Source: Kovacikia minuta CCNUW1
Lineage (GTDB): Bacteria; Cyanobacteriota; Cyanobacteriia; Leptolyngbyales; Leptolyngbyaceae
DNA: 64,000 bases
Assembly (NCBI RefSeq): GCF_020091585.1
Contig: NZ_CP083582.1
Coordinates: 6,396,536 to 6,460,535, forward strand
Reading direction: 5' to 3'
Part shown: piece after piece, positions 22,419 through 59,644 of the stretch
Layout of the letters: each line of letters begins with the position of its first letter
Position numbering within the stretch: position 1 is the first letter of the stretch
Notes under the pieces: generated by a model
The model's input: the letters and a program-made list of their open reading frames with translations, nothing else
Database searches by the model: none
Told to the model about the DNA's origin: nothing
Translations under genes and position numbers: made by a program

Positions 22419-25096
22419 CTAAATTACCCAACCCTTGATTGCCTGCCATGCCGTGGCAACCCAATTAAAAAGCGCCCACCCCTTGACTGCCAGTGCGCCT
22501 CCGAGCGCTGCTACCAGGGCAGAACTGAACACGATACTCAATAACCACCAGGCGGCGATCGCCGCTGCTTTACGGGTGGCTTCTGCCCGTTGCTGCGCCT
22601 GCTGTTGTAATTCTTGCAAGCGGTTGTTTGCTTCCTGACTGAGGCGTTCTAATTGTTCCAATACTCCAAGGCGCACCGCTTCCGCCCGATCAACAATTTG
22701 ATTAACCACAAATTGGGACAAATCCTGGCGGGCACTCAGGAGGGTGGTTAGGGTTTCACGGTTCAAATCGCGCAGATAGTTTCCTACAGTCTCAACCCCT
22801 TCCTGGGGAAGCGTTAGCAGCTTTTGCAGGTCAGTTTGAATACTTTCGTAAGCCAAATCACGGGGCTTCAAATCCTTGAAATAGGTCCGAATTTTTTCCG
22901 CCAGTTGCACGAATTGCGCCTGCGTCCAGGTTTGGATCTCCCGAACTTGCTCAACCAACTGCCGCTGCGCCGCTTCTACCTGATCCACGATTTGATGGAC
23001 TTCGGCTTCAGTCAAGTCATCCCGTTGGGCTAAGATTGCCACCAGCGTATCGCGATCGCAGGCTGCCCAGCGTTCCTCCAGCCGCTCCAGTCCTTCCTTG
23101 GGGTCACGCAACAGCAATTTCAAATCCCGTTTAATTGCATCCGGGTTCAGTTCCTCCTTCTCGGTCTGGAGCAGATAATCCTCCAGGTTTGTTTGAAAAT
23201 TTTGCACCATTGCCTGCGTGCGGGCTGCAAACCGTCGAGGGGCTTTTTGGATGGAAGGCAAAAGCTCGGAGGCAGACGTCAGAAAAGAATCATCTGTTTT
23301 CTTGCCCTCCCCCCCTTTTCCGTTTCCCCTTGCCCCTTTCCCCCGCCCCCTTTCCCCTGCCCTCTGCCCTCTGCCTTATCCCAGAGAGGTTGCTCCTGAC
23401 TCAAATGAATATCACCCAGGTCTGCGACTTTATGGATGATGGAGTCGTGACTCCGCTTTGCCGCTGTCGTTGCTTGGTTTGATACCGCTGTGGGCACCTC
23501 CAACAATTTATGCCACACTTTTTCAACCTGGTCAGCAACCCGCTGAATCCGCTTTTCAGTCAGGTTTTGCCGCTGTTGAAGAAGGGTCACAACCGCTTCC
23601 CGTTCTAGCGGAACCAGCGCTTGCCCAAACTCACCCGTTTCTTGTTCAAATTGTTTCACGAGTTTCTTGAGTTGCCGCTTAATTTCCGGGGCAGTCACCT
23701 TCTGGTCCGGGTCAGCCAGATAGGTTTTGAACGACTGCCAGAGGTTCTCTGCCTCAGCTGGGGCGAACTGTTGCCGTTGGTGGGTAATTGCCTTCTCCAG
23801 ATTCTCTAAAACCGACTGTCGCGCTGCTTCCAACTGATCGGCAATTCTCGCAACTTTCGCTGGTTTTAGATCATCTCGTCGCCCCAGCACTTCTACAAAA
23901 TAATCCCGGTTCACCGCTTCTAGCTGTTGTCGTACCTGGTCTGGGTCGGCATCCGGGTCATAAATCACCTGGATAAATTCTGGCTTTGTGGCTTTGCGTT
24001 TCAGTTGCCAGGGGTAGGCATTCAGCAGGTAGTCCTCCACATCCATCTGAACGATCGTTAGGGTTTGTGCGGGTCGGGAGGTGTCTGGGTTTTGAGGGTG
24101 CTGGGTCTGCCCAAAAACCTTCTGCCACACATCCTCCACCAAATCCACAACCTGATTGATGTCCTGCTGGGAAAAATCCGTGCGATCGCTCAGAAGGCTG
24201 ACCAGCATAGCGCGATCAGCCTTGCCAACAAATGCTTTTCCTACGACAGAAGCCAGATCTGAATTGGCGAGGGAAACGAGATTCGAATGGTTGAGCAAAC
24301 CTTCCAGATCCGTTCGAATAGTATCCAAATTCAGCTGGGGGATTTGCAGGCTGTCCAGATACCCTTTGAGCTTTGTCTGGACACCACCGGAATCCGGAGC
24401 TTCTACAGCTTCTAAATTTTCTACAGCTTGTGGATCTTTTACAGCTTCTGGAGCTTCTACAGCTTTTTGCAAATCACGATAGGCGAGGGCTGAAGAATTC
24501 GTTGTGGCAGACGTTTTTGGTTGAAACGGGAGGGGCAGTACAGGGGAGGGGTCAGCCAATGGGGTGAGCGATCGTGCTGGAGTTGCCGGGGTAGCACGTT
24601 TGTCTTGCATGGCACGGGTGATGGTTGTAATCAGCCCCCGCACACTTGCCGTTACGCCGCCTAACACCGAACCGACCAGCGGGCTGACTGCGGTTGTGCT
24701 CAACCAGATCAGAATCAGGTAATAGGCAGACCAGAGCACCACCCCCAGGATGGCTCCCACCGCAACGTTGTCAACCAGGCTCAGTTTCACCGCTAAAAAA
24801 GAAGCCAGAAACAGAACGGTGTTAATCGTGAGCAACGTTCCAAAGCCGATCGCAAAGCCAATCTGACCTGCAACTTTACCTGACCCACCTGACTCTGATG
24901 CCGGAGCTTGCTCAGACTCTTGAGAGGGCTGAAGCTGGTCAGGTTGCTCAGGCTGTTCAGAAGATTGACCTTGCCAGATGAACCCCAGGGTTGTGATTCC
25001 AACTGCAACTCCCAGGGTTGTCAACAGCAATTGAAACGCAAACGCCATCATCAATCCCGCAATCAAGGTGATGAAAAATGGCGAACTGGAAGACAT
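22419..25096 (-). CDS. membrane protein with repeated helical modules, split by a 1-bp frameshift inside a heptamer array
   Basis: Two frames (23279-25096 and 22419-23261) form one protein of about 890 residues. The N-terminus has two to four membrane helices (ITLIAGLMMAFAFQLLL, GFAIGFGTLLTINTVLFLAS, VAVGAILGVVLWSAYYLILIW); the C-terminus has one more (WWLLSIVFSSALVAALGGAL). Between them a helical module recurs about every 90 residues with (T/V)LL-(S/G)(D/Q)R-DL/F, then VVDLVE, IADQLE, VADQVE, IVDQVE, IVDRAE. The frames meet in a G/C-rich array; adding one base to the C7 run 23309-23315 joins them as EGKKTDDSFLTSASELLPSIQKAP. The function is unknown; homologues are sometimes labelled MFS transporter, which the sequence does not support. 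The array codes for KAEGRGQGKGGGGKGQG. Confidence 0.65.
23305..23377. repeat. CTGCCCT and CCCCTTT heptamer array within coding sequence
   Basis: Degenerate CCCCTTTCC units followed by CTGCCCT repeats lie between two helical modules of the membrane protein, adding about 25 residues. Confidence 0.7.
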
Positions 25097-26055: not shown

Positions 26056-26089
26056 GCAGGTGTCAGGTGTCAGGTGTCAGGTGTCAGGG
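26056..26089. repeat. CAGGTGT heptamer array
   Basis: Nearly five perfect copies of GTGTCAG lie in the 25971-26256 divergent gap, which also has a TTAGCGTCAGCGTAACGCA-type repeat near 26170-26190. No gene seen there. Confidence 0.8.
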
Positions 26090-26256: not shown

Positions 26257-27831
26257 ATGGAAACGTTGCCGGATGAATCGTTCAAAAAGGCAGTCGAACG
26301 GGTGAATTGTTCAATTGATATTTTGATTCTGTCCAATGGGCCAGGAGAGCTGGCAACCTGGGTTAAGCCGGTTGTGCAAACCCTGCGTCAGCAGTTGGGA
26401 GACGATCGGGAACAGGTGCGTATTTCTGTGGTTCTGTCCCCCTGTGCCAATGCCAGCGGGCAAGAAGCCACAATTGCCCGCCGCTTCCCAGAAGTGGATC
26501 GGGTGCAGGAGGCATCCCATTTTTTCCCATTTCTGCTGTGGGGCAAAACTGCGGAAAACTGGGATTGGCGATCGCAGGGGGTTGTTTTGTTTTTGGGAGG
26601 TGACCAATTCTTCCCAGTAATTGTTGCCAAACGTCTCGGTTATCGCAGTGTCATCTATGCCGAATGGGAAGCTCGCTGGCACCGCTGGATCGATCGCTTT
26701 GGTGTCATGCGACCAGAAATTGCCACCCGCGCGGGTAGCAAATATGCTGACAAATTCACCGTCGTCGGAGATTTGATGGCGGAAGTGGGAAGGTGGGGGG
26801 CGGGAGAAGAAAGGCGGAAAGGGGGAAAGGGGGAAAGGGAAAAGGAGAAGGCAGAGGGCAGAGGGCAGAGGGCAGAAGGGGAGGCGTCAGGAGCCAGGAG
26901 CCAGGAGTCAGAAGAAGACGCGGAGATGCGGAGACGTGGAGACGCGGAGGATTCTTTAATTCAAAATGCCGATAGCCCTCAGCCCTCAGCCCTCAGCCCT
27001 CAGTCCTCAGTCCTCAATTCAATTCAAAACTTAAAACTTAAAACTCATAACTTTTCCTCCACACCCCACACCCCACACCCCACACCCCACACCCTGATTG
27101 GCATTCTCCCCGGTTCCAAGCCGATGAAGTTGTCTTTGGGCGTGCCATTGCTGTTGGCGATCGCGGAACAGATTCAGCGCATCAGACCTGACACTCGCTT
27201 TGTCATTCCCGTCGCTCCCAGTTTAGATTTGCTAACCCTGGCACAGTTTGGTGACCCGGAACAGAATCCGGTCATTCGGCGATTGGGTTGGACGACAGCA
27301 GAATTGGTCACCCCTGAGGCAACCGAGCCTTTTCTTAAAACTGGAAATGGACTGCGGGCAGATCTGTGGACCCAATCCCCTGCCTATGAACTGCTGGCTC
27401 AATGCACACTCTGCCTGACAACCGTGGGGGCAAACACAGCAGAGTTAGGGGCACTGGCAGTTCCCATGATTGTGATCCTGCCCACCCAACAAATGGATGT
27501 GATGCGAGCCTGGGATGGGCTGCCGGGGTTACTGGCAAATCTGCCAGGGGTCGGGTCGGCATTTGCAACCGCCATCAACTGGCTGGCACTGCGCCGCATG
27601 GGACTACTGGCATGGCCCAATATCTGGGCAAAGGAAGAAATTGTCCCGGAACTGGTGGGTGAACTGCACCCCGAAGCCGTTGCCCAACTGGCGATCGACC
27701 TCCTGAACCATCCCGAAAAACTGGAAGCCATGCGCACCAGACTTCGCAACGTTAGAGGCAAACCCGGAGCAGCAGAGAAGTTGGTTCAGTTGGTACGAGA
27801 AGAAATAGAAAAGATGAAGGCTAAAAGCTAA
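26257..27831 (+). CDS. LpxB-like (lipid-A-disaccharide synthase-related) glycosyltransferase with a repeat-encoded insert
   Basis: A 524-residue protein related to the GT19 family. The N-terminal domain (about 15-185) has ILILSNGPGELATWVKPV and VLFLGGDQFFPVIVAKRLGY; the C-terminal domain (about 280-520) has IGILPGSKPMKLSLGVPLL, TTVGANTAELGALAVPM and the ILPTQQMD loop. In cyanobacteria this relative is of uncertain role, perhaps acting on another glycolipid. Between DLMAEVGR and LIGILPGSK about 95 residues of low complexity (rich in G, E, R, K, then S, P, Q, H) are encoded by compound heptamer repeats (26790-27094) that stay in frame. This place is the inter-domain linker, where an insert could be tolerated. 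Confidence 0.8.
   Translation: METLPDESFKKAVERVNCSIDILILSNGPGELATWVKPVVQTLRQQLGDDREQVRISVVLSPCANASGQEATIARRFPEVDRVQEASHFFPFLLWGKTAENWDWRSQGVVLFLGGDQFFPVIVAKRLGYRSVIYAEWEARWHRWIDRFGVMRPEIATRAGSKYADKFTVVGDLMAEVGRWGAGEERRKGGKGEREKEKAEGRGQRAEGEASGARSQESEEDAEMRRRGDAEDSLIQNADSPQPSALSPQSSVLNSIQNLKLKTHNFSSTPHTPHPTPHTLIGILPGSKPMKLSLGVPLLLAIAEQIQRIRPDTRFVIPVAPSLDLLTLAQFGDPEQNPVIRRLGWTTAELVTPEATEPFLKTGNGLRADLWTQSPAYELLAQCTLCLTTVGANTAELGALAVPMIVILPTQQMDVMRAWDGLPGLLANLPGVGSAFATAINWLALRRMGLLAWPNIWAKEEIVPELVGELHPEAVAQLAIDLLNHPEKLEAMRTRLRNVRGKPGAAEKLVQLVREEIEKMKAKS
26790..27094. repeat. compound heptamer array inside the LpxB-like gene
   Basis: Successive tracts of GGGGGAAA-like, GAGGGCA, AGGAGCC, GGAGACG, CCTCAGC, AACTTAA and CCACACC heptamers run for about 305 bp with an open frame. 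It is the longest array in the window. Confidence 0.85.
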
Positions 27832-29878: not shown

Positions 29879-29938
29879 TATGGCAGGTGGCAGGTGACGG
29901 GTGGCAGGTGGTAGGTGGTAGGTGGTAGGTGGTAGGTA
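29879..29938. repeat. GGCAGGT/GGTAGGT heptamer array
   Basis: About eight units of GGYAGGT stand in the 29769-30106 gap, followed by AATTCAAAATTC-type and CCCCCTC tracts to about 30030. No gene seen. Confidence 0.8.
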
Positions 29939-32143: not shown

Positions 32144-32630
32144 CGACGTTCGGGAGAGGTTTGAGCAAAGCGATACCCCGATTGTAGAGGCAGAGGCAGA
32201 TCGAATCATGGGGACAGTCTGTGCAACTGACGCGGATAAGGGGAGAGGGAATGAAAGCCCTCCTGCCGCTTTGTTAACTTTTGTAAACCAATTCGAATGA
32301 TTTTTCCGTAATTTCACTGAAGCTGCTATGACGCTCTTTTTAAACTCCGTAATTCCTGGATGGGTATTTCCCATAGTTAAAGGGAATAATGCCAGAGGAA
32401 TGTGATGGATCACTGATTGGAGTTCAATAACTAACGCGATCGCCTCAGCAAGATTGAGGTTACGCGCCTCATTAGCCTTTATCTGATCTTTATCTATCCC
32501 TGGTATCGGCGCTTGATCTGCGATCGGTATCCTGTGCATCTTGCCGCTTCTCTAATAGAGGGGTTGGTATCACTTTTGACTGCACATTTCTGTGCTTGCT
32601 ACTTACTGTCGTTTCCCTTACTACCCATTT

Positions 32631-35600
32631 ATGCAACCCTTCCAACCCCTCAGCTCCACCCACTCTCCATCCTCCCTCCCTCATCCCTCATCCCTCATCC
32701 CTCCCTCCCCACTCCCCACTCCCTCCCTCTCCCTCATTTCCCCTGCCCCCTTCCCCTCCTCCTCCTCCCTCCTCTTCATCGACCCCACCGTAGATGACCT
32801 GCCCAACCTGCTTGCTGGTGTCACAGCGGGAACAGAGGTGCATGTCCTCAACACCTCACAGGATGCCGTTTCTCAAATCACAAGTACGCTGTTAGGACGG
32901 GAAGGCATTTCTAGCATCCACGTTGTTTCCCACGGGGAAGCAGGCGGCTTGGATTTTGGCACGGGCAAACTGAACCTCAGCGACCTACCCCAATTTGCCA
33001 GTCAAATCCAGTCCTGGAAGAAGGCACTGACGGATGATGCCGATATTCTGCTCTACGGCTGTGATGTGGCGGAAGGCGAACTGGGTAAAGCCTTTGTCAA
33101 TATTCTCAGCCAGTTAACTGGAGCGGATGTGGCTGCTTCTACGAACCTAACGGGTAATAGCGACAAAGGTGGCGACTGGAATTTGGAGTATCATTATGGC
33201 GACGTAGAAGCAGCCCAAGCATTTACCCACCAGTTCACCACAGGCTATCAGGATGTATTAGCTACCTTTACGGTTCACCAAGCCAGTGACATTGAGCTGC
33301 GCAGTGCAATTGAGCAGGCAAACAACTCACCAGGTGCCGATACCATCCAATTTGACCCAGCGGCGTTTGCCACCCCCCAAACCATTTCGCTAGACTATCG
33401 CCAACTGGTCATTAACGATGATCTGACCATCCAGGGTACCGGAGCTAATAATCTCGCGGTGAGTGGCGGCAATATCTCTCGCGTCTTTTTTATTCAGTCA
33501 GGAGTTGTAAATTTACAAGACCTGTCTGTAATAGACGGACAAATAACTGCTGGAGCAGGAGGTACCCCAGCTTATGGCGGCGGCGGCGGCGGTGCCGCCG
33601 CGATGGGAGGGGGAGTATTCATCAATAGTGGAACAGTCTCCATTCGTAACGTCACCTTCTCAAATAACAGTGTAACTGGAGGCCCAGGAGGGAGGGGTGG
33701 TAATGGTGGTGCGGTCTCCGGTGGCGGGGGGGCCGGTACCGATGGCAATGGCGCTGACACAACAACCCTAACAGGCGGGAGAGGCGGCGCTGGAGGCGCT
33801 TTAGGCGGTGTTGGTGGTACTAGTACAGAACAAAATGGTGGGGCCGGCGGCACCGGTGCTGGTGGCGGTGGCGGATGGATTGTGGGGGGTAACGGTGGGT
33901 TTGGCGGCGGCGGTGGCGGCAGTGGTAATGGTAATGGAGCAAGCGGTGGGTTTGGCGGCGGCGGTGGTGGCACCGGCTCTACAAACACGGGTGGTAGTGG
34001 GGGGAATTTGGGTGGCACCGGTGGCAACCAGAGCGGTGGTGGCGGTGGTGGCGCAGGGTTAGGCGGGGCAATTTTTATCCGAGAAGGCTCTCTTACCCTC
34101 GACACGGTTAATTTCATCAATAATTCCGCTGCTGGTGGAATCGGAGGGCAGGGACGTTCCGGCAACGCAAGCAACGGTCAAGGTAAGGGGGGAGCTATCT
34201 TTGTTCTCGATAGCTTGACGAATACCAACGGTAACGATCAGGGCATGCCCAGTGCACTTCCCACCGTTCAATCCAGAGGTGTGTCTGGCAGCGGCAATAC
34301 AGCAACGAATGCGGGGGATACGGCAACCGATAACAACGACGTTTTTGGGGCTGACATCTTTCCCCCTCCTAACGCCGCCCCTGTCGTCACGATTTCCGGT
34401 ACTCCCCTCAGCTACACCGAAAACAATCCCGCCATCCTCCTTGATCCGACTGCCACTGCCACCGATTCCGACTCCACCGATTTTGATACGGGTAAGTTAA
34501 CGGTTAACTTCAGCGCCAATGGGACGGCAGATGATAGGCTTGCCATTCGCAATCAGGGCAGCAGCACTGGGCAGATTAGTGTTTCTGGGAACACCGTCAG
34601 CTATGGGAGCAGCCAAATTGGCACCTTCACGGGAGGTACGGATGGCACTACGCCCCTGGTGATTACCTTGAATGCCAGTGCTACCCCAACAGCAGTTTCC
34701 GCTCTGTTGCAAAATCTGACCTATACCAACGTTTCGGAAAATCCCTCGACATCACCTCGCACCGTGCAACTGGTGCTGACCGATGGCGATGGCGGTACGA
34801 GTACGGCTGCCACCAAGACCATTAACGTGACAGCGGTGGACGACACTGAATACGTGGTGACGAACACCAACGATGCTGGCGATGGCTCCCTGCGGCAGGC
34901 GGTCTTAAATGCCAATGTCGATCCGGGGACGGAAACCATTCACTTTGCGCTGCCCACAGGAACCCAAACGATCAGTCTGCTCTCAGCTCTGCCGACTTTG
35001 AGCGACAGTGCCAACATCCTCAACACCACCGGGGCGATCGGACTGACGATTAAAGCAGACACAGCTGGTGCTTTTTCCATTTTTAAGGTTGGTGCAGGTC
35101 AGACCGTCAACTTTGATCAGCTCACCCTGAGCAATGGCATCAATGGCATTCTCAATGCGGGAACAACCAGCATCAGCAACAGTTTTCTGATTGGCAATAC
35201 CAATGGCATCAGCAATGGTAGCGGTGGCACCATTACCAGCATCCGCGATAGCAGTATTGTCGGTAACACGGGCGCGGGCATCAACAACACTGCCGGTACG
35301 ATCGCCAGCATCAGCAACAACACTATTAGCGACAATACAACCGGTGGAATTGTTAACGTCAACGGCACCATTAACACCATCATTGCCAATACGATTAGCG
35401 GTAATCAGGATGGTATTGCCAATGTTTCTAATGGGCTAAGTACCACAATCAATGTTCTTAGCAACAATACAATCAGCGGTAACAGTCGCTATGGCATTTT
35501 CAATCAATCTGCACTCACTACGATCAGCAATAACACGATCGCAGGCAACGCGGACTTTGGCATTGCGAACGCTGGTACCATTACCAACCTATTCAACAAC

Positions 35601-36806
35601 TTGCTGGTGGGGAATGGTAACAATACCCTGGTTAATGTCACCAATCAAAAACAGAACTTTGCCGGTACCTTTGCCCAGGCTGGTGTTGATCCAGTCCTCA
35701 AAGACAATGGTGGAGCCACCAAAACCCATGCCCTGTTGGCGAATAGCATTGCCATCAACAAGGGTGTCAATTCCAACCTGATCCAGGACATAACGGATCT
35801 AAACGGCAATGGCAACACCACCGAACTGATTCCCTTTGACCAGCGGGGTCAGGGCTTCAAGCGCATCCTGGGTGGAAACGTAGACCTCGGTGCCGTTGAA
35901 TATGTTCCCCAACCCGACTACAACTCAGACGGCAACATTGACTTGCTGTGGCATAACACTTCCACGGGAGCCAATGTCATCTGGGCACTCAACGGCACCA
36001 GTTACAGCACCGCCTTTAACCTACCCGTTCCCAAAGGTAACTGGCAATTTGAAGGCACCGCCGACTTTACCGGCGATGGCAAAGCCGACATTCTCTGGCG
36101 CAACGGCACCACCGGAGCCAATGTCATCTGGCAACTCAATGGCACGGGCTACAGCACTGCCTTCGCCCTGCCTACTTTGAAAGACACCAACTGGCAAATC
36201 GTCGGCACCGCCGACTTTACCGGCGATGGCAAAACCGACATTCTCTGGCGCAACGGCACCACCGGAGCCAATGTCCTCTGGCAAATGGATGGCATCAGCT
36301 ACAGTACTGCCTTTGCCCTGCCTGTCGTGAAAGGCAGCAACTGGACGATCGAGGCGGCAGCAGACCTCACAGGGGATAACAAGGCTGACCTGCTCTGGTA
36401 TAACAATGCCACCGGGGAAAGCTTGATCTGGCAAATGAATGGCACGGAGTACACTGCACCCATCAGAGTAAGCGGTGCAGGCAGCGGACTGATGCCAGAA
36501 ACAGTGGCAGACTTCACTGGGGATGGTGTCGCTGACATTCTGTTGCGTAAAAGATCCACTGGGGAAAACATTGTTTGGCAACTGACTAGCCCAACCTCTA
36601 GCACGTACTATTCCCTACCCACCCTCAAGGGAGATAGCTGGACGATTCAGGGGGCGGCTGACTTTGATGGCAATGGCAGCACAGACATCCTCTGGCGTAA
36701 TTCTGCTTCGGGTGCCAATGTTATCTGGCAAATGACTGGTATCAATTACAGCACCGCCACTGCCCTGCCCCCACTGGCAAGTGCAACCTGGGTGAATTAT
36801 CTGTAA
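32631..36806 (+). CDS. DUF4347 surface protein with glycine-rich beta-helix and FG-GAP-like repeats (smaller paralogue)
   Basis: A 1391-residue predicted surface protein. Residues 1-45 are Ser/Pro/Leu-rich and encoded by heptamer repeats. DUF4347 follows at about 47-205 (LLFIDPTVDDLPNL, HVVSHGEAGGLDFG, ILLYGCDVAEGELGKAFV). Then a parallel beta-helix with a very glycine-rich stretch (about 320-520), a cadherin-like domain (about 585-735), a domain starting TNDAGDGSLRQAVLNAN, more beta-helix (about 820-1000), and about six 50-residue FG-GAP/VCBS-like repeats (ADFTGDGKADILWRNGTTGANVIWQL) to the end WVNYL. No RTX nonapeptides are seen. The start at 32631 (MQPFQPL) matches the paralogue's MRPFQPL; ribosome site absent. 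Adhesion or cell-surface role is inference. Confidence 0.85.
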   Translation: MQPFQPLSSTHSPSSLPHPSSLIPPSPLPTPSLSLISPAPFPSSSSLLFIDPTVDDLPNLLAGVTAGTEVHVLNTSQDAVSQITSTLLGREGISSIHVVSHGEAGGLDFGTGKLNLSDLPQFASQIQSWKKALTDDADILLYGCDVAEGELGKAFVNILSQLTGADVAASTNLTGNSDKGGDWNLEYHYGDVEAAQAFTHQFTTGYQDVLATFTVHQASDIELRSAIEQANNSPGADTIQFDPAAFATPQTISLDYRQLVINDDLTIQGTGANNLAVSGGNISRVFFIQSGVVNLQDLSVIDGQITAGAGGTPAYGGGGGGAAAMGGGVFINSGTVSIRNVTFSNNSVTGGPGGRGGNGGAVSGGGGAGTDGNGADTTTLTGGRGGAGGALGGVGGTSTEQNGGAGGTGAGGGGGWIVGGNGGFGGGGGGSGNGNGASGGFGGGGGGTGSTNTGGSGGNLGGTGGNQSGGGGGGAGLGGAIFIREGSLTLDTVNFINNSAAGGIGGQGRSGNASNGQGKGGAIFVLDSLTNTNGNDQGMPSALPTVQSRGVSGSGNTATNAGDTATDNNDVFGADIFPPPNAAPVVTISGTPLSYTENNPAILLDPTATATDSDSTDFDTGKLTVNFSANGTADDRLAIRNQGSSTGQISVSGNTVSYGSSQIGTFTGGTDGTTPLVITLNASATPTAVSALLQNLTYTNVSENPSTSPRTVQLVLTDGDGGTSTAATKTINVTAVDDTEYVVTNTNDAGDGSLRQAVLNANVDPGTETIHFALPTGTQTISLLSALPTLSDSANILNTTGAIGLTIKADTAGAFSIFKVGAGQTVNFDQLTLSNGINGILNAGTTSISNSFLIGNTNGISNGSGGTITSIRDSSIVGNTGAGINNTAGTIASISNNTISDNTTGGIVNVNGTINTIIANTISGNQDGIANVSNGLSTTINVLSNNTISGNSRYGIFNQSALTTISNNTIAGNADFGIANAGTITNLFNNLLVGNGNNTLVNVTNQKQNFAGTFAQAGVDPVLKDNGGATKTHALLANSIAINKGVNSNLIQDITDLNGNGNTTELIPFDQRGQGFKRILGGNVDLGAVEYVPQPDYNSDGNIDLLWHNTSTGANVIWALNGTSYSTAFNLPVPKGNWQFEGTADFTGDGKADILWRNGTTGANVIWQLNGTGYSTAFALPTLKDTNWQIVGTADFTGDGKTDILWRNGTTGANVLWQMDGISYSTAFALPVVKGSNWTIEAAADLTGDNKADLLWYNNATGESLIWQMNGTEYTAPIRVSGAGSGLMPETVADFTGDGVADILLRKRSTGENIVWQLTSPTSSTYYSLPTLKGDSWTIQGAADFDGNGSTDILWRNSASGANVIWQMTGINYSTATALPPLASATWVNYL
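32648..32770. repeat. CCCTCAT/CCCCACT heptamer array coding the N-terminus of the DUF4347 protein
   Basis: CCCTCAT, TCCCCAC and CCCTCCC units in tandem, read in frame as SSLPHPSSLIPPSPLPTPS. The equivalent place in the second paralogue has a different set of heptamers. Confidence 0.8.
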
Positions 36807-37143
36807 CCCGAACCAGGAGGATGGGACATTGAACTTCTTCACTGTCCCATCCTCCGTAATTACTGAATGTGCGTTGTCTTCTGGTTTCGGGAATAATACC
36901 TTCGTGTTTGATTCATCTTTACCTGACGTTCAATTTCTTTCTCTACTCCCTCCGCAGAATTCGGGATAACTGCTTCCCCATCCTGACCTGAATTTTACGA
37001 TCGCCCCCTTTAACGGGATTGAGGGAGTGATCAGCTTCTACTTCCTCGTGCATCCTTACCACTCCAATAGAGGGGTTGGTATTACTTTTGAGTGCAAACT
37101 TTTCGTACCTGCTACTTCCTGTCGTTTCCCTTACTACACACCC
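36807..37143. promoter_or_regulatory. inter-paralogue region with duplicated upstream DNA
   Basis: The last 75 bp (about 37070-37143, AGAGGGGTTGGTATTACTTTTG onward) closely match 32560-32630 before the first DUF4347 gene, so promoter and gene were duplicated together. Nothing else is recognisable. Confidence 0.65.
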
Positions 37144-40100
37144 ATGCGACCTTTCCAACCCCTCAACTCCACCAACTCCTCAGCCCTCAACCCTCAACCC
37201 TCAATCCTCAACCCGCCCTCCCCACTCCCCACGCCCTCCCTCATCTCCCCGACTTCCTTCCCTTCTTCCTCCTCCCTCCTCTTCATTGACCCCACGGTCG
37301 ATGACCTGCCCAACCTGTTGTCGGGAGTCACAGCGGGAACAGAGGTACACATCCTCAACTCCTCACAGAATGCGGTGACACAGATTACGAATACTCTATT
37401 GGGACGGGAAGGCATTTCCAGCATTCACATCGTCTCCCACGGAGAGTCGGGTGGGTTGGACTTTGGCGCGGGCAAACTGAACCTCAGCGATTTACCTCAA
37501 TTTGCCAGCCAGATCCAGTCGTGGAAAAAGGCATTGACCAATGATGCGGATATCTTGCTCTACGGTTGCGATGTCGCAGACGGCGAACTGGGTAAAGCCT
37601 TTGTCAACATTCTCAGCCAGTTGACTGGAGCCGATGTCGCGGCATCGAGTGATTTAACAGGTAGTGCCAGCCAGAGCGGCAACTGGACTTTGGAAGTAAA
37701 TACAGGTGAGATTGGTACATCGCTTGCTTTCCGGGCAGATGTTCTCGCGAACTATCAGCACATTCTTCCGGTTGACCTCGTATCGTCACCGTTGCCAGCA
37801 CTCCCCAATGACGCAATGGGTGGGAGCCTGACGACGAACACTTCCAACCGTCGGGTCGTCAGTAGCGATGGACGCTATTCCGTTTTTACCAGCTCTGGAG
37901 CGAATCTGGTACCCAATGACAACAATAATGCTCAAGATGTCTTTGTGCATGACCGGATTGCAGGTACAGTCAGCCTGGTGAGTCTAAACAGTAGTGGCAC
38001 AGGCAGCGGTAACAACAGTGCATCCAATCCGGTAATTAGTGCCAACGGGCGCTACGTGGCATTTCAAAGCGGTGCCAGCGATCTGGTTGCGGGAGTGGGT
38101 GGGATTCAGATCTACGTGCGCGACCTGCAAACGGGCACAACAGTTGTGGCAAGTCGTGCCAATGGGGTCAGTGGTGTGACTGGCAATAGCACCTCCTCCA
38201 ACGCCAGTATCAGCGACGATGGGCGCTATGTCGCCTTCCAAAGCTTTGCCAACAATCTCAGTCCGGGTGACATCAACTTTAATCAGGACATTTTTGTGCG
38301 AGACCTGATGAACAACACGACTGTACTGGCAAGCCCCAACAGTAGCGGTACCAATGGTGGCAGCAGTACATCAGCCAATCCTCTGATTAGCGGGGATGGG
38401 CAGTCGGTAGTCTTTGTCAGCTCTGCCACTGATTTGACAGCTCTGGCTGACACCAATGGTACCCAGGACATTTTCTGGCGGAATTTGCAGACCAACACCA
38501 CCCAACTGGTCAGCCGCAACAGTGCGGGCACGGGCACGGGCAATAGTTTCTCTGACCTTCCTGTGATCAGCAGCGATGGGCGCTACGTGGCGTTTCACAG
38601 CTACGCCAGCAACCTGACGAGTCTGAGCGATACGAACAATACCTACGATGTTTTCTTGTTTGATGCTCAGGCAGGCACCAACACACTGTTGAGCATCAAC
38701 AGCAGCGGTACGGGCACGGGCAACTCCTTCTCCTACAACCCCAGCATCAGTGCCGATGGACGCTACATCGCTTTCCAAAGCAGTTCCATTAACCTCAGTC
38801 CGCTAGACCCCAACAGCACATCAGATATTTATATCCGCGATCGTGTTGCCGGGACTTTCACCCTTGCCAGCGTCAACAACAGCAATACGTTGGGCAACAA
38901 TTCCTCCTTCGACGCTAACATCAGTGCCGATGGACGCTACGTCGCCTTTGTGAGTGCAGCTAACAATCTGAGTCCCCTCGACACCAACTTCAATCAGGAC
39001 ATTTTTGTGCGGGACTTGCAGAGTAACACAACTGTGCTGGTAAGCCCCAACAGTAGCGGCACCGATGGCGGTAATGCGGCATCTTTGACTCCTGTGATCA
39101 GTGCCAATGGGCAGGTGGTCGTGTTCTCTACTAATGCCGCAAATCTGACCAGTAGCAGTGACTCGAATGGACAGAGCGATGTCGTTCTGCGGCATCTGCC
39201 AACCAATACCAGCAATCTCCTGTCTCGTCGCGATCCATCGCTGCCGCTTTCTACTACAGCAGGTTCCAGTTCCGTCAACAGTAGCCGAAACCGTTCAGTC
39301 AGTGCGGATGGGCGCTACGTTGTGTTTGACAGCAGCGCAGGCAATCTGGTACCCAATGACAACAATAATGCTCAAGATGTCTTTGTGCGAGACACGCAGA
39401 CGAATACAGTCAGCCTGGTGAGTCTAAACAGCAGCGACACGGGCAGCAGCAACGGCAGTTCGTCCAGCCCGGTAATTAGTGCTAACGGACGCTACGTGGC
39501 ATTTGTAAGCAATGCTAACAATCTGGTCACAGGAGTGGGTGGAACTCAGGTTTATGTGCGCGACCTGCAAACGGGCACAACGGTTGTGGCAAGCCGTGCC
39601 AATGGGGTCAGTGGCGTAACTGGCAATAGCAACTCCTCCAATGCCAGTATCAGCGACGATGGGCGCTATGTCGCCTTTACTAGCACTGCCAACAATCTCA
39701 GCCCAAGCGACACCAACTTTAACCAGGACATTTTTGTGCGGGACTTGCAGAACAACACGACTGTACTGGCAAGCCCCAACAGTGGCGGTACCAATGGTGG
39801 CAGCAGCACATCATTCAGCCCCCTGATTAGCGGGGATGGGCAGTCGGTAGTCTTTGTCAGCGTTGCCACTGATTTGACAGCCCTGGCTGACACCAATGGT
39901 ACCCAGGACATTTTCCGTCGGAACTTGCAGACCAATACGACTCAACTGGTCAGCCGCAACAGTGCGGGTACGGGCACGGGCAACAATTTCTCTGACCTTC
40001 CCGTCATCAGCAGCGATGGGCGCTACGTGGCGTTTTATAGCAACGCCAGCGACCTGACGAGTCTGAGCGATACGAACAATACCTACGATGTCTTCCTGTT

Positions 40101-43100
40101 TGATGCTCAGGCAGGTACCAACACACTGTTGAGCATCAACAGCAGCGGTACGGGCACAGGGAATAGCGGTTCCTATACCCCCAGCATCAGTGCCGATGGA
40201 CGCTACATCGCTTTCCAAAGCAATGCTAGCAACCTCAGTCCACTGGACACTAACGGCACTCCAGATATCTATGTCCGCGATCGTGTGGCTGGCACCTTCA
40301 CCCTTGCCAGCGTCAACAACAGCAATACTCTGGGCAACAATACCTCCTACGAGGCTAACATCAGTGCCAATGGACGCTACGTCGCCTTTCTGAGTTACGC
40401 CAGCAATCTGAGTCCCCTCGATACTAATTTCAATCAGGATGTTTTTGTGCGGGACCTGCAAACGGGTGCCAGTCACCTGATCAGCCGCAACCAGACGGAT
40501 AGCAATGGCGGCAACAGCAATTCCTTTACTCCCCGGATCGGCGCGGATGGTAGGTATGTTCTGTTTCAAAGCAACTCCAGTGACTTAGTGAGCAATGACC
40601 TGAATGGTCAGCAGGATGTATTTGGTCTGGGGTTGAGTGCAGATCCCACGGTTACCTTGCCCGGTGGCACCCTTGCCTACACAGAAAACGACCCTGCTAC
40701 CCTGATTGACCCAGGGGCAACTGTCCAGGACCCCGGTTCAGCTAACCTGAATGGTGGGTTCCTGCGTGCTCTCTTCTCCGCAAATGGCACGGTTGACGAT
40801 CGATTGGCAATCCGTAATCAGGGCAATGGTTCTGGACAGATTGGCGTTTCTGGCAGCACAATCACTTATAATTCTGGCAGTGGGGCTGTGGCGATCGGCA
40901 CCTTCACAGGTGGCACGGGCACTACTCTTCTACTCATCACATTTAATGCCAATGCTACACCCGAAGCTGCCCAGGCGTTAATACGGAACCTCACCTATGC
41001 CAACGTTTCAGAAAATCCCTCTACCGCAGCCCGCACCCTCAATATTACCCTAAGTGATGGCAGCGGCGGCAGCACACTAGTCACCAAAACGATCAACGTC
41101 ACCGCAGTGGATGACACTCAGTTCTTTGTTACCAATACCAATGACAGCGGGGCAGGTTCCCTGCGGCAAGCGATTTTAGACGCCAATGCTGATCCTGGAG
41201 CGGAAACAATTACATTTGTCGGTCCCACCTTTACGGATACCACACCGGATACAATTTCCCTCACCTCCGGTCTCATCATCGACGATGATGTGACGCTTCA
41301 AGGAACAGGGGCAACTAAACTGGCAATTGCCGGAACTGGACCGATCGATAATGGTTTTGCACTGCTTACCATCAATGCCAGCAAAACAGCTTCTTTCAGT
41401 GGCCTCACACTCCGCGATGCAACCTATGGTATTCGCAACAATGGCACGATCGCGTCCTTCAGCAACAGCGTCATCACCAACACTCGATTCGAGGGAATTA
41501 ATAACAGTAGCGGTAGCACGATCGCGCTGTTAACCAACAGCACCATCAGCAACGTTCAACTTCAAGGGATCTACAACGGGGGCACCATCACCACCCTGAG
41601 TAACAGCACCATCAGCGGTAACACGAGCTACGGCATCTACAACGACGGTACGATCACCAATCTGCTCAACACCACCTTCGGGTTCAATGGCCGTAATGGC
41701 ATTTACAACAATGGGGCGATCGCTAATCTCAACAACAACACGATTAGTAGTAGCCAGCAGGATGGCATCATTATTGATGGCGGCACCATTACCAATCTGA
41801 GCAGTAGTACAGTCAGTGGCAACCTATATTCCGGTATTGCCCTTGTCCGTAACGGTACAATCGCCAATTTGATCAATAGCACGATCAGCGGCAATGGGAT
41901 TGATGGGATTTATCTCAGTAATAGCGGGATCAATAGCCTGATCAACAGCACGATTGCTGGCAATCAAAGATTTGGTCTTAACAACGACGGAGGAGGCACG
42001 ATCACCACTGCTGCAAACAATCTCGTCGCAGGTAACGGTAGCAACGGAACCGCCAACCTAAACGTTGTTCCATTAGGCGCTACCAACCTGATCGGCACCT
42101 TTGCATCTGTCGGGCTTGATCCTGTCCTTCGCAATAACGGTGGACTGACTCAAACCCATGCCCTCCTTCCCTATAGCCCTGCTGCCAATGTAGGCAGCAA
42201 TGCAGCTCTGCCCCAAGACACTGCTGACCTGGATGGCGACAGCAACATCACCGAACCCATTCCCTTCGACCAGCGAGGCACAGGTTTTAACCGAATTAGG
42301 GGTGGCACTGTAGATGTGGGAGCGTTTGAAGTTCAGAACGATCTTCCCACCTCTGCGAACAACAGCGTCACTTTTAATGAAGACACCGACTATACCTTTA
42401 CCGCTGCTGACTTCCCCTTCAGTGACACGGACAATGGCGATAGCTTGCAATCCGTCCAGATTACCCAACTCCCGACAGCAGGTAGCCTAACTTTGAATGG
42501 CAATGCGGTTAATGCCAGCGACATTATTACGCTCAGCGACATTACCAGCAACAAACTCAAATTCACCCCCTTTGCCAACGCCAATGGCACCAACTATGCC
42601 AGCTTCCAATTCAAAGTTGGTGATGGTAAAGGCTTCAGCAGTTCAGCATCCACAATGACATTGAACGTCACCGGGGTCGATGATACTGAGTTTGTGGTGA
42701 TCAACACCAACAGTGGCGGGGCAGGCTCCCTGCGGCAGGCAATTCTGGATGCCAATGCGGACACGGGAGCTGAAACCATCCGATTTAATATCACGGGTGG
42801 CGGTGTACAGGCGATTAACCTCAGTTCTGCCCTGCCTGAGATCACCGAACAGGTGACGATCGACGGTTATACCCAGGCTGGTGCGACGGAAAACACTCTG
42901 GCAGTGGGCAACAATGCCAATCTTAAGATTGTGCTGACTGACAACGGCAGCGAGGGATTGGCAAATGGCTTAGTCCTGACGAATGGTTCCAACAACAGCA
43001 CAATTCAGGGCTTAGTCATCCAGGGCTTTAGTAATAGCGCCATCACCATTCAAAATGGCAGCACTGGCAGCACCATTCGGGGTAACTTCATCGGCACCAA

Positions 43101-46100
43101 TGTTGCCGGGGATGCGGCAAGTGCTAATGGATATGGAGTTCAACTGACTCAGGGTGCGAGCAATAATGTGATTGGCGGCAGTGCCGCAGGCGATCGCAAC
43201 CTCATTTCTGGCAACACCAATGCAGGCATTAATCTGAGCATTGGTGCCTCTAGCAACCTGATTCAGGGCAACTACATTGGCACCAACGCCAGCGGCACAG
43301 CGGCGATTGCCAATCAAAGCGACGGTGTTCAGCTCCAAAATAGTGGCAGCAATAATACGCTTCAGGGCAACGTGATTTCTGGAAATGGCGCGAATGGTAT
43401 TTTTATGACGAGTACCGGCACCAATCAGGTGAAAGGAAACCTGATTGGTACCAATGCGGCTGGGAATGCGGCGATCGCGAACATCGGCAAAGGCATTTAC
43501 ATCTCAGGAACGGGTTCGATGACCCTTGGCGGCAGCACCGTGGCAGATCGGAATGTAATTTCTGGAAATGGTCAGCAAGGAATCACGATTGACGGCAATG
43601 GCGGATACATCATTCAGGGTAACTACATTGGCACCAACGCCAGCGGCACAGCGGCGATCGCCAATCAAAGTGATGGTGTATTCCTGAATAACGTCGGCAG
43701 CAGCACGATTCAAACTAACCTAATTTCTGGGAATACAGGAAACGGTGTCTCGGTAGTGACCGGTGGTGGCAACCAGATCACGGGCAATACGATCGGCACC
43801 AATGCGGCTGGGGATGCGGCAATTGGAAACCAGGGCAAAGGAATTTCGATTACCAACTCTGGTAACCCAACTATTGGTGGCACCACCACAGCCGATCGCA
43901 ACCTGATTTCGGGTAATGGACAGCAAGGGATAGTCATTTCTGGCTCTGGCGGCGGAACAATTCAGGGCAACTATATTGGCACCAACGCCAGTGGCACGGC
44001 TGCTATTGGCAATCAAAATGGGGGTATTGTTCTAGACAATCATTCCGGTGCCACGATTCAAACCAACCTGATTTCGGGCAATAATTCCATTGGCGTTTTG
44101 CTCCAAAATGGCAGCAACGGCACTCAGGTCAAAGGAAACTCCATTGGGACAGACATCACAGGCACTATTGACCTGGGTAACACTTTAGATGGCATTCAAA
44201 TTTCGTCTTCTCAAGGCACGACTATTGGTGGTAGCACAGTCAGCGATCGCAACCTGATTTCGGGCAACGATCGAATTGGCATCCTCCTGAGTACCTCGGC
44301 AAACAACAATCAGATCAAAGGTAACTACATTGGTACCAACGCCGCTGGCACCGCTCAACTACGAAACAACTACGATGGTGTGCAAATCACTAACAGCGCA
44401 AATAATCTGATTGGAGGCAGCGCCGCTGGAGAAGGCAATCTCATCTCTGGCAACGGTGACTCCAGCGCTCCAAATGGCTTGGGTATTTTCATTGCGGGTG
44501 CCAGTGCGATAGGCAACCAAATTAAGGGCAATCGGATTGGCACGGATGTAACGGGTACCGTTGCGATCGGGAATCGGTTGGGTGGAATTCAAACTCAATC
44601 TGCTACTAATACTGTGATTGGTGGGAGTACGGCGGGCGATCGTAACCTCATCTCTGGTAATGCTGGCAATGGTATCGCCATTGTTGGAAATACAGCTACA
44701 GACGGAATAAATAATCAAGTTCAGGGCAACTATGTTGGTACAGACATCACAGGAACAGCAGCCCTTGGCAACAACGGCAGAGGAATTACCATTACGACGA
44801 ATAACAACCTGATAGGTGGCACCAACCCAGGTGAAGGAAACGTCGTTGCTTTCAATGCCAACTACGGAGTTAGAGTGAATCTCAGCACTGGCAATCGAAT
44901 TCTGGGTAACTCAGTCTTTTCTAACGGCACTTTAGGAATTGAACTTGCTCCCGATAATAGTGTGACCCCCAACGATTTAGGTGACGGTGACACGGGAGCT
45001 AACAACCTGCAAAACTTCCCGGTGCTGACCAATGTTTCCAACAACAGCATCAGCGGATTCCTCAATAGCAACGCCAGCCGCACCTACCGCATCGAATTCT
45101 TTGCCAACACCGCTTACGATTCCTCCGGTGCAGGTGAAGGGGAAGTGTATCTGGGCTTCCAGGAAGTTACCACCGATGGTAGCGGCAACGCCACTATTAG
45201 TTTCAACTACACGCCTGTTAACGGTAAATCGATCATCACCGCTACTGCCACCGATTTGACGACAGGCGATACCTCTGAGTTCTCATTGCGAAATCAGGCA
45301 CCTGTTAACAATCTACCAGCTGGTCCATTCAACACCAATGAAGACACCGCTTTAGTCTTCTCTGGTGCCAACAAGATCTCGATTAGCGACGCTGACACCA
45401 GCAACAATATCCAGGTCACGCTCAATGCTACCAACGGCACCGTGGCTTTAGGCAGTACCAGCAATGTCACCGTCACAGGCGACAACTCCAACACTGTTAC
45501 CGTCACGGGCAGCATCGCCGACATCAACGCAGCCCTGAATGGACTCAGCTTTAACCCCACTGCTAACTACAACGGCATTGCTTCCATCCAGATTGTCACT
45601 AATGACCAGGCAGCCTTAGAGCTAGGTGGTGCCTTGAGTGACACCGACACCCTCAACATCACGGTCAATCCATTCAACGATGCTCCTGTTTTGAGTGACA
45701 CTGACGTTGTTCTGTCAGCGGTGAATGAAGATGCCGGGAATCCAACCGGAGACGTGGGCACCTCCATCTTCGCCATTATCAACAGCTCCAATGTGTCTGA
45801 TATTGATATTGACAGCGGCTTTCTGGCGGGGATTGCGATTACCGCCGTCGATACCAGTAATGGCAGTTGGTTCTATCGGCTGAATGACAGTGCTAATTGG
45901 ACACCATTGAACACCGTTTCCGACAGCAACGCCCTATTGCTGAGCGCAGAAGCCCGCATCTACTTCAAACCTGGGGCTAACTTCAGTGGTGATGTCAATC
46001 AAGCGATCACCTTCCGTGCCTGGGATCAAACCAGCGGCACTGCGGGTAACTTTGCCAACACCACGGGTAGCAACAATGGGGGCACCACCGCCTTCAGTGC

Positions 46101-49100
46101 TGCTACTGACACCGCTGCTCTGACTGTCAACCCAATTAATGACGTACCCTCATTTACCAAAGGCATAGACCAGAGCGTGAATGAAGATGCCGGGGCACAG
46201 GTCGTCAGCAACTGGGCTACCAATCTTTCTGCGGGGGCGGCCAACGAAAGTAGCCAAACCCTCACCTTCGTGGTCAGCAACGACAACAACAATTTGTTCT
46301 CAGCACAACCCAGCATTGATTCATCCGGTAATCTTACCTACACCCCAGCAGAAAACGCCAACGGGATGGCGACGGTTACTGTCTTCCTGAAGGACAATGG
46401 CGGCACGGCAAATGGCGGGGTTGATACTTCCGCTACCCAGACCTTTACGATTACCATCAAGCCAGTTAATGACCCACCCTCGTTTACCAAAGGAACCAAT
46501 CAAACCATTGATGAAGATGCGGGGGCACAAACGATCGCCAATTGGGCAACCAACATTTCCCCTGGACCTGCGGATGAAGCAGGACAAACGGTCAACTTCC
46601 AGGTGAGCAATAACAACAATGGGTTGTTTAGCGTCCAACCCACCATTGATCCCACGGGCAAGCTCACCTATACGCCTGCTGACAATGCCAGTGGCACCGC
46701 TACGATTACGGTCGCTCTAAAGGATACGGGTGGTTTACTCAACAATGGGGTGGATACTTCTGCCGCTCAGACTTTCACGATTACAATTAATCCGGTGAAT
46801 GATGCCCCCAGTTTTACTGGCAATGCGACTCTAACAGCGATTCAGGAAGATACGACCAATCCCGCTGGCAGCACGATCTCGAACCTGTTTGGCAACCTGT
46901 TCCAGGATATTGATACCAATTCCAGTCTGGGTGGGATTGCAGTAGTCGGAAATCCCGCTAATTCCAACCTCCAGGGCGAATGGCAATACTCCACCGACAG
47001 TGGTACGAATTGGTCTGCAATGGGCACGGTTGCCGATGATGCCACAGCACTGGCACTTTCAGCCACTACCCTGGTGCGCTTTGTCCCCTTTGCCAACTAT
47101 CACGGCACTGTTCCAGATCTGGTTGTGCGGGCACTGGATAATTCCTACAACGGGGGTTATTCCAATGGGTCTACTCGCGTTACAGTAAACGCCAGCGCCA
47201 ATGGGGGAATAACGCCGATCGCCGCCACCACCAACACCCTGGGCACCAGCGTCACAGCCGTTGACGACACTGCATTCTTTGTCATCAACACCAACGACAG
47301 CGGCCTCGGTTCCCTGCGGCAGGCGATTCTAGATGCCAACAACGATGCAGGGACAGAAACGATTACCTTTACCGGCACCCCCTTTACCGATGCCACCCCC
47401 GATACGATTAGCCTGACTTCGGGTGAACTCTCAATTTCCGATAGTGTCACGATTACGGGCACCGGAGCAGACAAGCTGACCCTGAGTGGCAATGGGGGTG
47501 AACCCGCCCGTGTATTCGATATCGCCAACCCAGCAACGGTCACCTTAGAAGGGATGACGATCGCCAACGGTAATGCTATCAACGCCAATGGTGGTGGCAT
47601 TCATAACAGCGGCAACTTAACTGTAAACAAAGTCGCCATTCGCAGTAATACTGCTACAGAAGGGGCTGGTATCTACAATGTGGGCAACCTGACGATCCTC
47701 AACAGCACCCTCAGCGGCAACACAGCGAGTGACTATGGGGGAGGTATCGCTAACAATGGCACCCTCGTTATTCGTAACAGCACCATCAGTGGCAATCAGG
47801 TCACGAGTACGGACAACGACAAAGGCGGTGGGGCGATCGACCAGTTCGGCAGTGGCAATCCCACAGCCACCATTGAGAACAGCACGATCGCCTTCAACAG
47901 TGCCGCCAACGCCAGCACCAGCGGCATCTGGCTGGAAAACGGCACGATGAGTTTGCGAAACACGATCGTTGCCAACAACAACGGTACCAACAACTTCCAG
48001 GTCGAAACTGGCGCTACTCTCACCTCTTTGGGCAACAACCTGACCAATAGTGTCACCTCGCCGCTGAACCAACTGAGCGATCGGACCAACGCCAATGCCC
48101 GCCTCGCTCCCCTGGCAAACAACGGCGGCACCACTCAAACCCATGCCCTCCTCTCCGGCAGCGCCGCCATCAACGCTGGCAACAACGCCAATGCCCCCAC
48201 CACTGACCAGCGCGGCTTTACCCGTATCCTGAGCGACAAAATCGACATCGGTGCCGTCGAATATGCCCCCCAACCCGACTACACCAGCGATGGCAAAATC
48301 GACCTCCTCTGGCGCAACAGTTCCTCTGGAGCCAATGTTATCTGGGCACTCAATGGCACCAGTTACAGCACCGCCTTTGCCCTACCCACCCTCACCGACA
48401 CCAACTGGCAGTTGGAAGGCACTGCCGACTTTACCGGCGATGGCAAAGCCGACCTCCTCTGGCGCAATCGTTCGACGGGGGCAAATGTCGTCTGGCAACT
48501 CAATGGCACCGGGTACAGCACCGCCTTCGCCCTGCCCACCCTCAAAGACACCAACTGGCAAATCGAAGGCACTGCTGACTTCACCGGCGATGGCAGGGCA
48601 GATGTGCTCTGGCGCAACTACTCCACCGGTGCCAATGTCGTCTGGCAACTCAATGGCACCAGCTACAGCACCGCCTTCACCCTGCCCACCCTCAAAGACT
48701 CCAACTGGCGGATTGAAGGCGTGGCCGACTTCACCGGCGACGGTAAAGCCGATATTCTCTGGCGTCATTATGGCAACGGAGCCAACGTCATCTGGCTGAT
48801 GAATGGCACCAGCTATAGCACGGCATTTACCCTGCCCACCCAGAGTGCCGATTGGAGTCTCTGGAGCCTGGCAAAAGTCGCCGACTTCACCGGCGACGGC
48901 AAGGACGACCTGTTGTGGCGCAACAGCACCACTGGGGCAAATGTCATCTGGCAACTCAATGGCACCAGTTACAGCACCAGCTATGCCTTACCAACCCTGA
49001 AGGGCTATCAATGGACAATTCAAGGGGTGGCAGACCTGGATGGCAATGGCAGTAATGACATCCTCTGGCGCAACAGCAGCACGGGCGCGAATGTCATCTG

Positions 49101-50674: not shown

Positions 50675-50796
50675 CTGATTAAGGGGGACTTAGGGGGATC
50701 GCATCTTTGCTACCGACAGTAGGACTTTTCAAACACCCTCTAAGGGACTCGCTGAGAAATAACATCCCACTTTCATCCACCCATCCACTCACCTGC

Positions 50797-52174: not shown

Positions 52175-52189
52175 CACCTGCTGCTATTG

Positions 52190-54173
<1,984 letters not shown>

Positions 54174-59574: not shown

Positions 59575-59592
59575 GTGGTAGGTGGTAGGGGT
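59570..59592. repeat. GGTAGGT heptamer array
   Basis: Three copies of TAGGTGG begin within the last codons of the zinc-ribbon gene and supply its stop codon. Confidence 0.7.
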
Positions 59593-59644
59593 TAGGGAAA
59601 GGATAAAAACAATCTTTTCACCCCCTCACCCCCTCACCCCCTCT

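Follow-up and report, generated by a model that had tools for sequence, protein, structure and literature searches.

Genes of Kovacikia minuta CCNUW1 carry in-frame islands of heptanucleotide repeats, and these are probably dispersed composite repeats of the short tandemly repeated repetitive (STRR) type, which within genes survive only with the right frame and orientation and in a tolerant loop, and are there read as disordered linkers. The STRR sequences of cyanobacteria are tandem heptanucleotide repeats. The islands resemble them as tandem heptamers dispersed in a cyanobacterial genome, mostly outside open reading frames (ORFs; 130 of 163 islands), and differ in being ordered composites of several modules, octamers among them, of which a substantial share lies in frame within genes under one rule of strand and frame. 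The window is the whole 64-kb stretch analysed (contig 1, positions 6396536-6460535, of a genome of 8.56 Mb in three contigs); an LpxB-like gene and lysC each hold such an island there.

Islands in the LpxB-like gene and lysC

26257..27831, plus strand: gene for an LpxB-like protein of glycosyltransferase fold (524 aa), its two domains separated by the island (ORF scan, Pfam, homologues)
26816..27094, plus strand: in-frame composite island with the modules GGAAAGG, GGCAGAG, GGAGCCA, octamer AGACGCGG, CAGCCCT, AATTCAAAACTTAAAACTC and CCACACC
26809..26839, plus strand: octamer stretch GAAAGGGG, left end of the LpxB island (Tandem Repeats Finder, period 8)
26916..26949, plus strand: octamer stretch AGACGCGG, within the LpxB island (Tandem Repeats Finder, period 8)
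52707..52865, minus strand: in-frame composite island in lysC, with module order and peptides resembling the LpxB island
52190..53575, minus strand: ACT-domain part of lysC, ORF of 461 aa (Pfam ACT_9/ACT_7; NCBIfam NF005656)
53301..54173, minus strand: kinase-domain part of lysC, in another frame (Pfam AA_kinase; NF005656 profile 1-285)

A first inspection of the letters alone (hereafter the sequence-only reading) had described the LpxB-like gene as staying open through 305 bp of 7-bp repeats. The ORF indeed runs in frame and without a stop across the whole island, which is heptameric for the most part but not throughout: the period-7 segments (26816-26914, 26974-27052 and 27059-27094) make up 214 of the 305 bases, and 65 bases of the island region lie in period-8 stretches that partly overlap them, so that the island is not purely heptameric. 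The Pfam LpxB score of the protein falls exactly at the cut-off and the NCBIfam scan of it returned no match, while relatives are present in 58 of the 58 genomes searched, its own one counted. AlphaFold2, with an alignment of 36 sequences, predicted two confident domains and a predicted local distance difference test score below 50 at residues 201-276, corresponding to the island, which would accordingly be a disordered segment between the domains in this model. The top PDB fold match of the model is LpxB 5w8n (E 1.6e-9), but with a template modelling score of 0.31, such scores being low for this model.

The lysC island lies in frame between ACT domains, as had been claimed, and measures 159 bp rather than the 178 bp given for it. 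The gene itself is not open, a frameshift near 53320 (minus strand), far from the array, dividing the kinase ORF from the ACT ORF. Residues 80-454 of the ACT part match NF005656 profile 279-585, and its first ~80 residues fall outside the aspartate kinase match. In sister genomes the ACT part belongs to one open frame of 603-675 aa in 12 of 12 searched, and a search of the genome itself with lysC found no second place matching the ACT domains, the extra matches covering only the island part of the query. The frameshift may be either real or an assembly error. When the plasmid records were searched with the lysC island peptide, no match was obtained.

The two islands are each stop-free in exactly one of the six frames and their encoded peptides correspond. 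On the sense strand they share one order of modules, namely GGCAGAG, AGGAGTC or AGGAGCC, the A-rich AATTCAAAACTTAAAACTC, and then CCCCACT or CCACACC.

Survey of the genome, frame and strand

The survey sample consisted of 60 stretches of 20 kb, spaced every 100 kb along contig 1 between 50001 and 5970000, together with the window, for a total of 1.264 Mb. The 60 stretches contained 368 period-7 arrays, against 2 in one local shuffle, and only 24 arrays of period 8 and 6 of period 6; the counts at periods 14 (235) and 21 (117) were taken as harmonics of period 7. The window contained 19 period-7 arrays, against none in each of 20 local shuffles, and a chance origin of the arrays is rejected by these two comparisons. 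Merging yielded 163 islands of at least 45 bp, islands of other periods being scarce (29 in total for periods 5, 6, 8-12 and 15). To count as in frame, an island had to lie inside an ORF of 150 aa or longer, flanked by 40 aa or more of it on both sides: 29 islands were in frame, 4 lay in genes whose frame changes there, and 130 were elsewhere, some of which may overlap gene ends (26, 3 and 124, respectively, without the window). Extrapolated from the 26 in the 1.2 Mb outside the window, the genome would hold about 186 in-frame copies.

Frame was assessed with a trained codon model that assigned a coding frame to each 150-base flank of an island, and that was right for 918 of 1084 windows, as measured on its own training ORFs. 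Among 298 islands testable for phase, 169 were without a coding flank, 97 had one, 6 had flanks on opposite strands, and 26 were flanked by coding sequence on the same strand. In this last group 20 of the 26 islands were in phase and open, against the one third expected (P = 7e-6). The six out-of-phase cases comprise two islands between separate ORFs (L068:13972 and L086:11765), one in neither class (L086:13382), and three split genes.

Strand, too, is constrained. Of the 51 islands that contain the A-rich module, 31 have at least one frame open on the A-rich strand and none has one on the T-rich strand, and all 13 in-frame genic islands that this module can orient (13 of the 29) are sense, none antisense. 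A pure heptamer run passes through all three phases every 21 bases and spells the same seven-residue cycle in any frame, therefore selection can see only the stops of the modules and the frame behind the run. The sequence-only reading had reasoned from the frame constraint that the arrays must be selected or very recent; selection for frame is borne out by the 20 islands in phase and by the uniformly sense orientation, and a very recent age agrees with the greater length of perfect runs inside genes (a median of 31 nt compared with 23 nt elsewhere; P = 0.012) and with the other inserts, or none, at the same sites of sister genomes. That genic arrays were worn down to avoid slippage is not supported by the same comparison of run lengths.

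These results also bear on whether the islands are an assembly artefact of repetitive DNA. The lysC frameshift means that the assembly may hold indel errors; random indels, however, would not yield 20 of 26 islands in phase, and analogous in-frame heptamer inserts occupy the same sites in other genomes. We hold an artefact to be extremely improbable.

Carrier proteins and linkers of relatives

Conserved protein was recognized on both sides of 24 of the 29 in-frame islands: 22 outside the window by Pfam domains on both sides or around the island, the LpxB-like one by homologues and lysC by its ACT domains. Such support is missing for five (L053:9052, L076:6552, L076:10234, L095:9723 and window:37178). 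In GyrA the island separates the breakage-reunion core from the C-terminal propeller, in MnmE it lies between the G domain and the last helical part, and in RsmB between the NusB-like and ferredoxin-like domains, and all three proteins reach the curated NCBIfam cut-offs despite the insert. Compared with solved relatives, the linker has 52 residues in MnmE against 10 in 3geh, and 41 in GyrA against 11 in 6rks. Further carriers recognized with Pfam are a UvrD-like helicase, an AIR-synthase-family enzyme, tocopherol cyclase, rubisco activase, an M16 peptidase and a ketosynthase; AnmK and a protein with AAA-lid and VWA domains are also among them. NAD synthase, a TPR protein and UPF0182 (both inside the domain) carry two islands each, and five histidine kinases carry one between HisKA and the end of HATPase_c. 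Another observation concerns a histidine kinase (L056:14253-14373) with ~120 bp of near-pure CCACACC in frame, a good slippage candidate. That the arrays sit exactly at domain linkers is thus accurate for the LpxB-like protein, lysC, GyrA and RsmB but not for others, the interior of a single domain being hit in tocopherol cyclase, NAD synthase, the ketosynthase and HATPase_c.

The linker of the LpxB-like protein varies among close relatives, some having a short one of ordinary sequence and others a different stretch coded by heptamers. Within a set of 29 relatives, detectable arrays were found at four loci (L010, L015, L017 and L023), and 28 were open through the linker, the exception being L010, which starts near a contig end and whose frame closes just before the heptamer run. 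Two further loci, L191 and L213, have one stop codon each in the translated match region, the linker of L191 itself being open. In 80 named genomes the linker was located in 54, the other 26 loci having no linker anchors (likewise 4 of 12 GyrA linkers); all 54 were in frame and 11 of them had a period-7 array. The peptides of the arrays differ among relatives (e.g., NSQFPIP, SKIQNP, LPITNYQ). At the same threshold, period-7 arrays were detected in the linkers of 12 sister genomes in 5 of 12 for MnmE, 4 of 12 for RsmB and 4 of the 8 located for GyrA, and their peptides again vary from genome to genome. A comparison of relatives had been proposed as the check, with ordinary sequence at these linkers counting against the idea; the same sites hold other heptamer arrays in some relatives and ordinary short linkers in others.

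A hidden Markov model (HMM) of 14 island peptides found matches in at least 60 of 291 genomes of the class, its own counted, and in at least 34 of 131 genera, scoring being limited to 23 candidates in each genome. In its own genome 150 of 3050 candidates were scored, and these fall in 96 places, 74 of which have a frame open for 250 aa or more.

The repeats might be kept because they provide useful spacing or flexibility between domains. The reuse of the same interdomain sites across genera with differing heptamer peptides would suit such a role, as would the predicted disorder of the LpxB-like insert and the similar length of GyrA linkers with and without arrays. Yet 43 of the 54 located LpxB-like linkers have no array, inserts also occur inside single domains, their sequence turns over fast, and 130 of 163 islands lie outside ORFs. 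Selection for linker function appears quite unlikely; the most probable view of the inserted peptides is that they are passengers, tolerated rather than selected as linker devices.

Module order, dispersal and split genes

Four module types were distinguished, R1 (GGCAGAG), R2 (AGGAGTC), A (A-rich) and Y1 (CCACACC type), and 17 of the 29 in-frame islands hold at least two of them. Counted by motif over the islands, R1 precedes A in 18:0 cases and Y1 in 15:0, and R2 precedes A in 12:0 and Y1 in 13:0. The order is maintained in the 130 non-ORF islands (R1-A 7:0, R1-Y1 8:0, R2-A 3:0, R2-Y1 4:0), so that it is not made by coding selection, and composites seem to be copied as units. A DNA search of its own genome with the LpxB-like gene gave 75 matches, the gene itself counted, and the rest of these fall on the island; strong matches elsewhere reach 84-92% over ~70-115 bp, or ~72% over ~245 bp.

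A purely local origin, in which slippage enlarged a short repetitive linker already present with no copying between loci, might be invoked since linkers are low in complexity by nature, since heptamer runs recur at the same places in related genomes, and since no more than one of the four module types is present in 12 of the 29 in-frame islands. It does not account for multi-module composites at unrelated loci whose order is the same and whose DNA is up to ~90% identical, non-ORF islands included, and we consider it unlikely.

For dispersed composite repeats the following course may be envisaged. Heptamer modules, with some octamers, tend to one order, purine-rich and then A-rich and C-rich; composites would be copied to new places as units, and the length of the array would then change by slippage. 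A genic copy would survive only with its A-rich strand as sense, since the opposite strand is closed in every island tested, and only if the added length keeps the downstream frame, as the phase statistics show; survival would further require a linker or a tolerant loop, as alignments show for several proteins. Surviving copies would be translated as disordered linkers, judging from the structure predicted for one protein, while copies that miss the frame split their genes, as in the four cases found here.

Several points weigh against dispersed repeats tolerated in genes. The count of 29 in-frame to 4 out-of-frame islands (P = 1e-10) points in the same direction as the 20 of 26 in phase, with its two classes found by unequal means, the four being assigned by hand, three from the phase test and one from the helical-repeat gene of the window. 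The HMM matches lean to in-frame places because the model was built from in-frame peptides. The islands with fewer than two module types belong here too, as do the order of A before Y1, with counts of no more than 17:8 over all islands (not significant) and 5:5 in those outside ORFs, and that of R1 and R2 (9:3, not significant). GyrA linkers of sister genomes without arrays are of similar length (37-45 aa), so that in this protein an array need not mean a longer linker. Long perfect genic runs are expected to be unstable, which fits a recent arrival and also selection in their favour. Neither a transposase nor a terminal repeat nor a target duplication was identified, the ends of the element being unmapped and empty sites not having been compared base by base. 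Translation of the islands into protein is predicted from their open frames.

A hairpin or palindrome model was not supported by the folding of two islands, one of them as DNA and the other as RNA (z 0.04 and -1.09 relative to shuffled sequences). No strong hairpin was seen in these two, a result that bears on terminal inverted repeats of the kind found in miniature inverted-repeat transposable elements, with element ends unmapped.

Repeated DNA inserted in essential genes is usually expected to be purged, and Rickettsia is the well-known bacterial exception. The present case adds a cyanobacterium with an extrapolated load of 186 in-frame copies, enzymes such as gyrase and MnmE being among the carriers. 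It offers a natural set in which to ask which loops tolerate insertion, how low-complexity linkers arise and whether non-triplet genic repeats act as switches, and it is a warning that gene callers and family models will see such segments as odd linkers or split genes.

The Rickettsia palindromic elements are described, in the portions of the reports consulted, as ~150 bp long and in frame in unrelated genes with a conserved peptide (PMC10969869, PMC3733652). The 29 in-frame islands likewise occur in unrelated genes with recurrent peptide modules, whereas the two folded islands are not palindromic and the repeats are tandem heptamers of variable length. For the TAACTGA heptamers of Beggiatoaceae and cyanobacteria, the portion of the report consulted has its authors suggest mobile copies tolerated between parts of modular proteins (PMC4679880). 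These too are heptamer direct repeats, but as described there they read as a stop in the forward direction and lie mostly between genes, while the modules considered here are open and read through. The intragenic location of heptamers, which the sequence-only reading had judged noteworthy, is as such already on record for Anabaena 7120, where the portion consulted reports 89 GGGGA(C/T)T heptamers genome-wide, 68% of them intergenic, with an intragenic share above that of xanthomonads and with lpxB marked as repeat-associated (PMC4692102). That work, in the same portion, centres on G-quadruplexes and the term 'in-frame' is absent from its main text; frame, together with modules, their order and the domains, is what was tested here. 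A literature search restricted to open-licence articles recognized no account of in-frame heptamer composites in cyanobacterial genes, nor of ordered ones held in frame in housekeeping genes.

Four genes are out of frame at their islands: AnmK, a TIGR03492 protein, a hybrid kinase and the helical-repeat gene of the window. In AnmK (L049) the first island is in frame and the gene splits at the second, its parts matching NF007143 profile 1-183 and 208-381; the TIGR03492 protein of L086, related to lipid-A-disaccharide synthase, is interrupted at a linker of the same kind; and in the histidine kinase L097 (17599-19970) the receiver domain is out of frame behind the island. A further IQNSK-like insert (ELKTQNLSPPPTP) in this kinase seems to be in frame before the G1 box. 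In the one assembly the split genes may be either decay or switches.

Taken as a general explanation, frame switching would mean that changes in heptamer copy number switch genes between on and off states, or connect and disconnect domains (phase variation). Each single period-7 step indeed shifts the frame, the unit not being a multiple of three, four genes are at present out of frame, and one kinase has the ~120-bp CCACACC run; but switching off housekeeping targets such as GyrA and MnmE makes little sense, one assembly cannot show variation from cell to cell, and plain gene decay accounts for the four genes. We regard it as very unlikely. A still-active genome-wide invasion of coding sequence by composite heptamer DNA, which would have created ~200 new disordered protein segments and let slippage switch domain architecture (e.g., kinase/receiver), is doubtful, if conceivable.

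The remaining arrays of the window are the following.

23313..23375, minus strand: heptamer-type array where the helical-repeat membrane gene changes frame (out-of-frame case)
23279..25096, minus strand: upstream part of the split helical-repeat membrane gene (ORF ends just past the array)
22419..23261, minus strand: downstream part of the helical-repeat gene, in another frame (similar repeats, and a frame reading on from the array)
37178..37236, plus strand: in-frame heptamer island near the N-terminus of a 4050-aa DUF4347/FG-GAP ORF
32665..32723, plus strand: heptamer island near the N-terminus of a 1404-aa ORF with 150-bp repeats, outside the 29 counted
26057..26088, plus strand: CAGGTGT array between genes, upstream of the LpxB-like one; its class is absent from all 29 in-frame islands

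The array of the helical-repeat gene had been counted as a third one that stays open, a claim that failed, the gene being split there into two ORFs of different frames. ORFs 23279-25096 and 22419-23261 were judged, from their sequences, to be probably one gene; a Pfam scan of ORF 23279-25096 matched no family at E 0.01. Two large ORFs of the window contain 150-bp repeats (32592-36806 and 37027-49179), the larger with DUF4347 and FG-GAP domains. Next to lysC, three ORFs at 49500-52177 presumably resemble transposases.

Runs of AGGTGGT occur in 23 of the 130 non-ORF islands and runs of AGGTGTC in 16 of them, both being absent from the 29 in-frame and the 4 out-of-frame islands. Since none is found in the in-frame islands, such arrays may be a separate intergenic population. 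Within the window, arrays of the AGGTGTC/AGGTGGT type are located at 26057-26088, 29881-29937 and 59566-59597.
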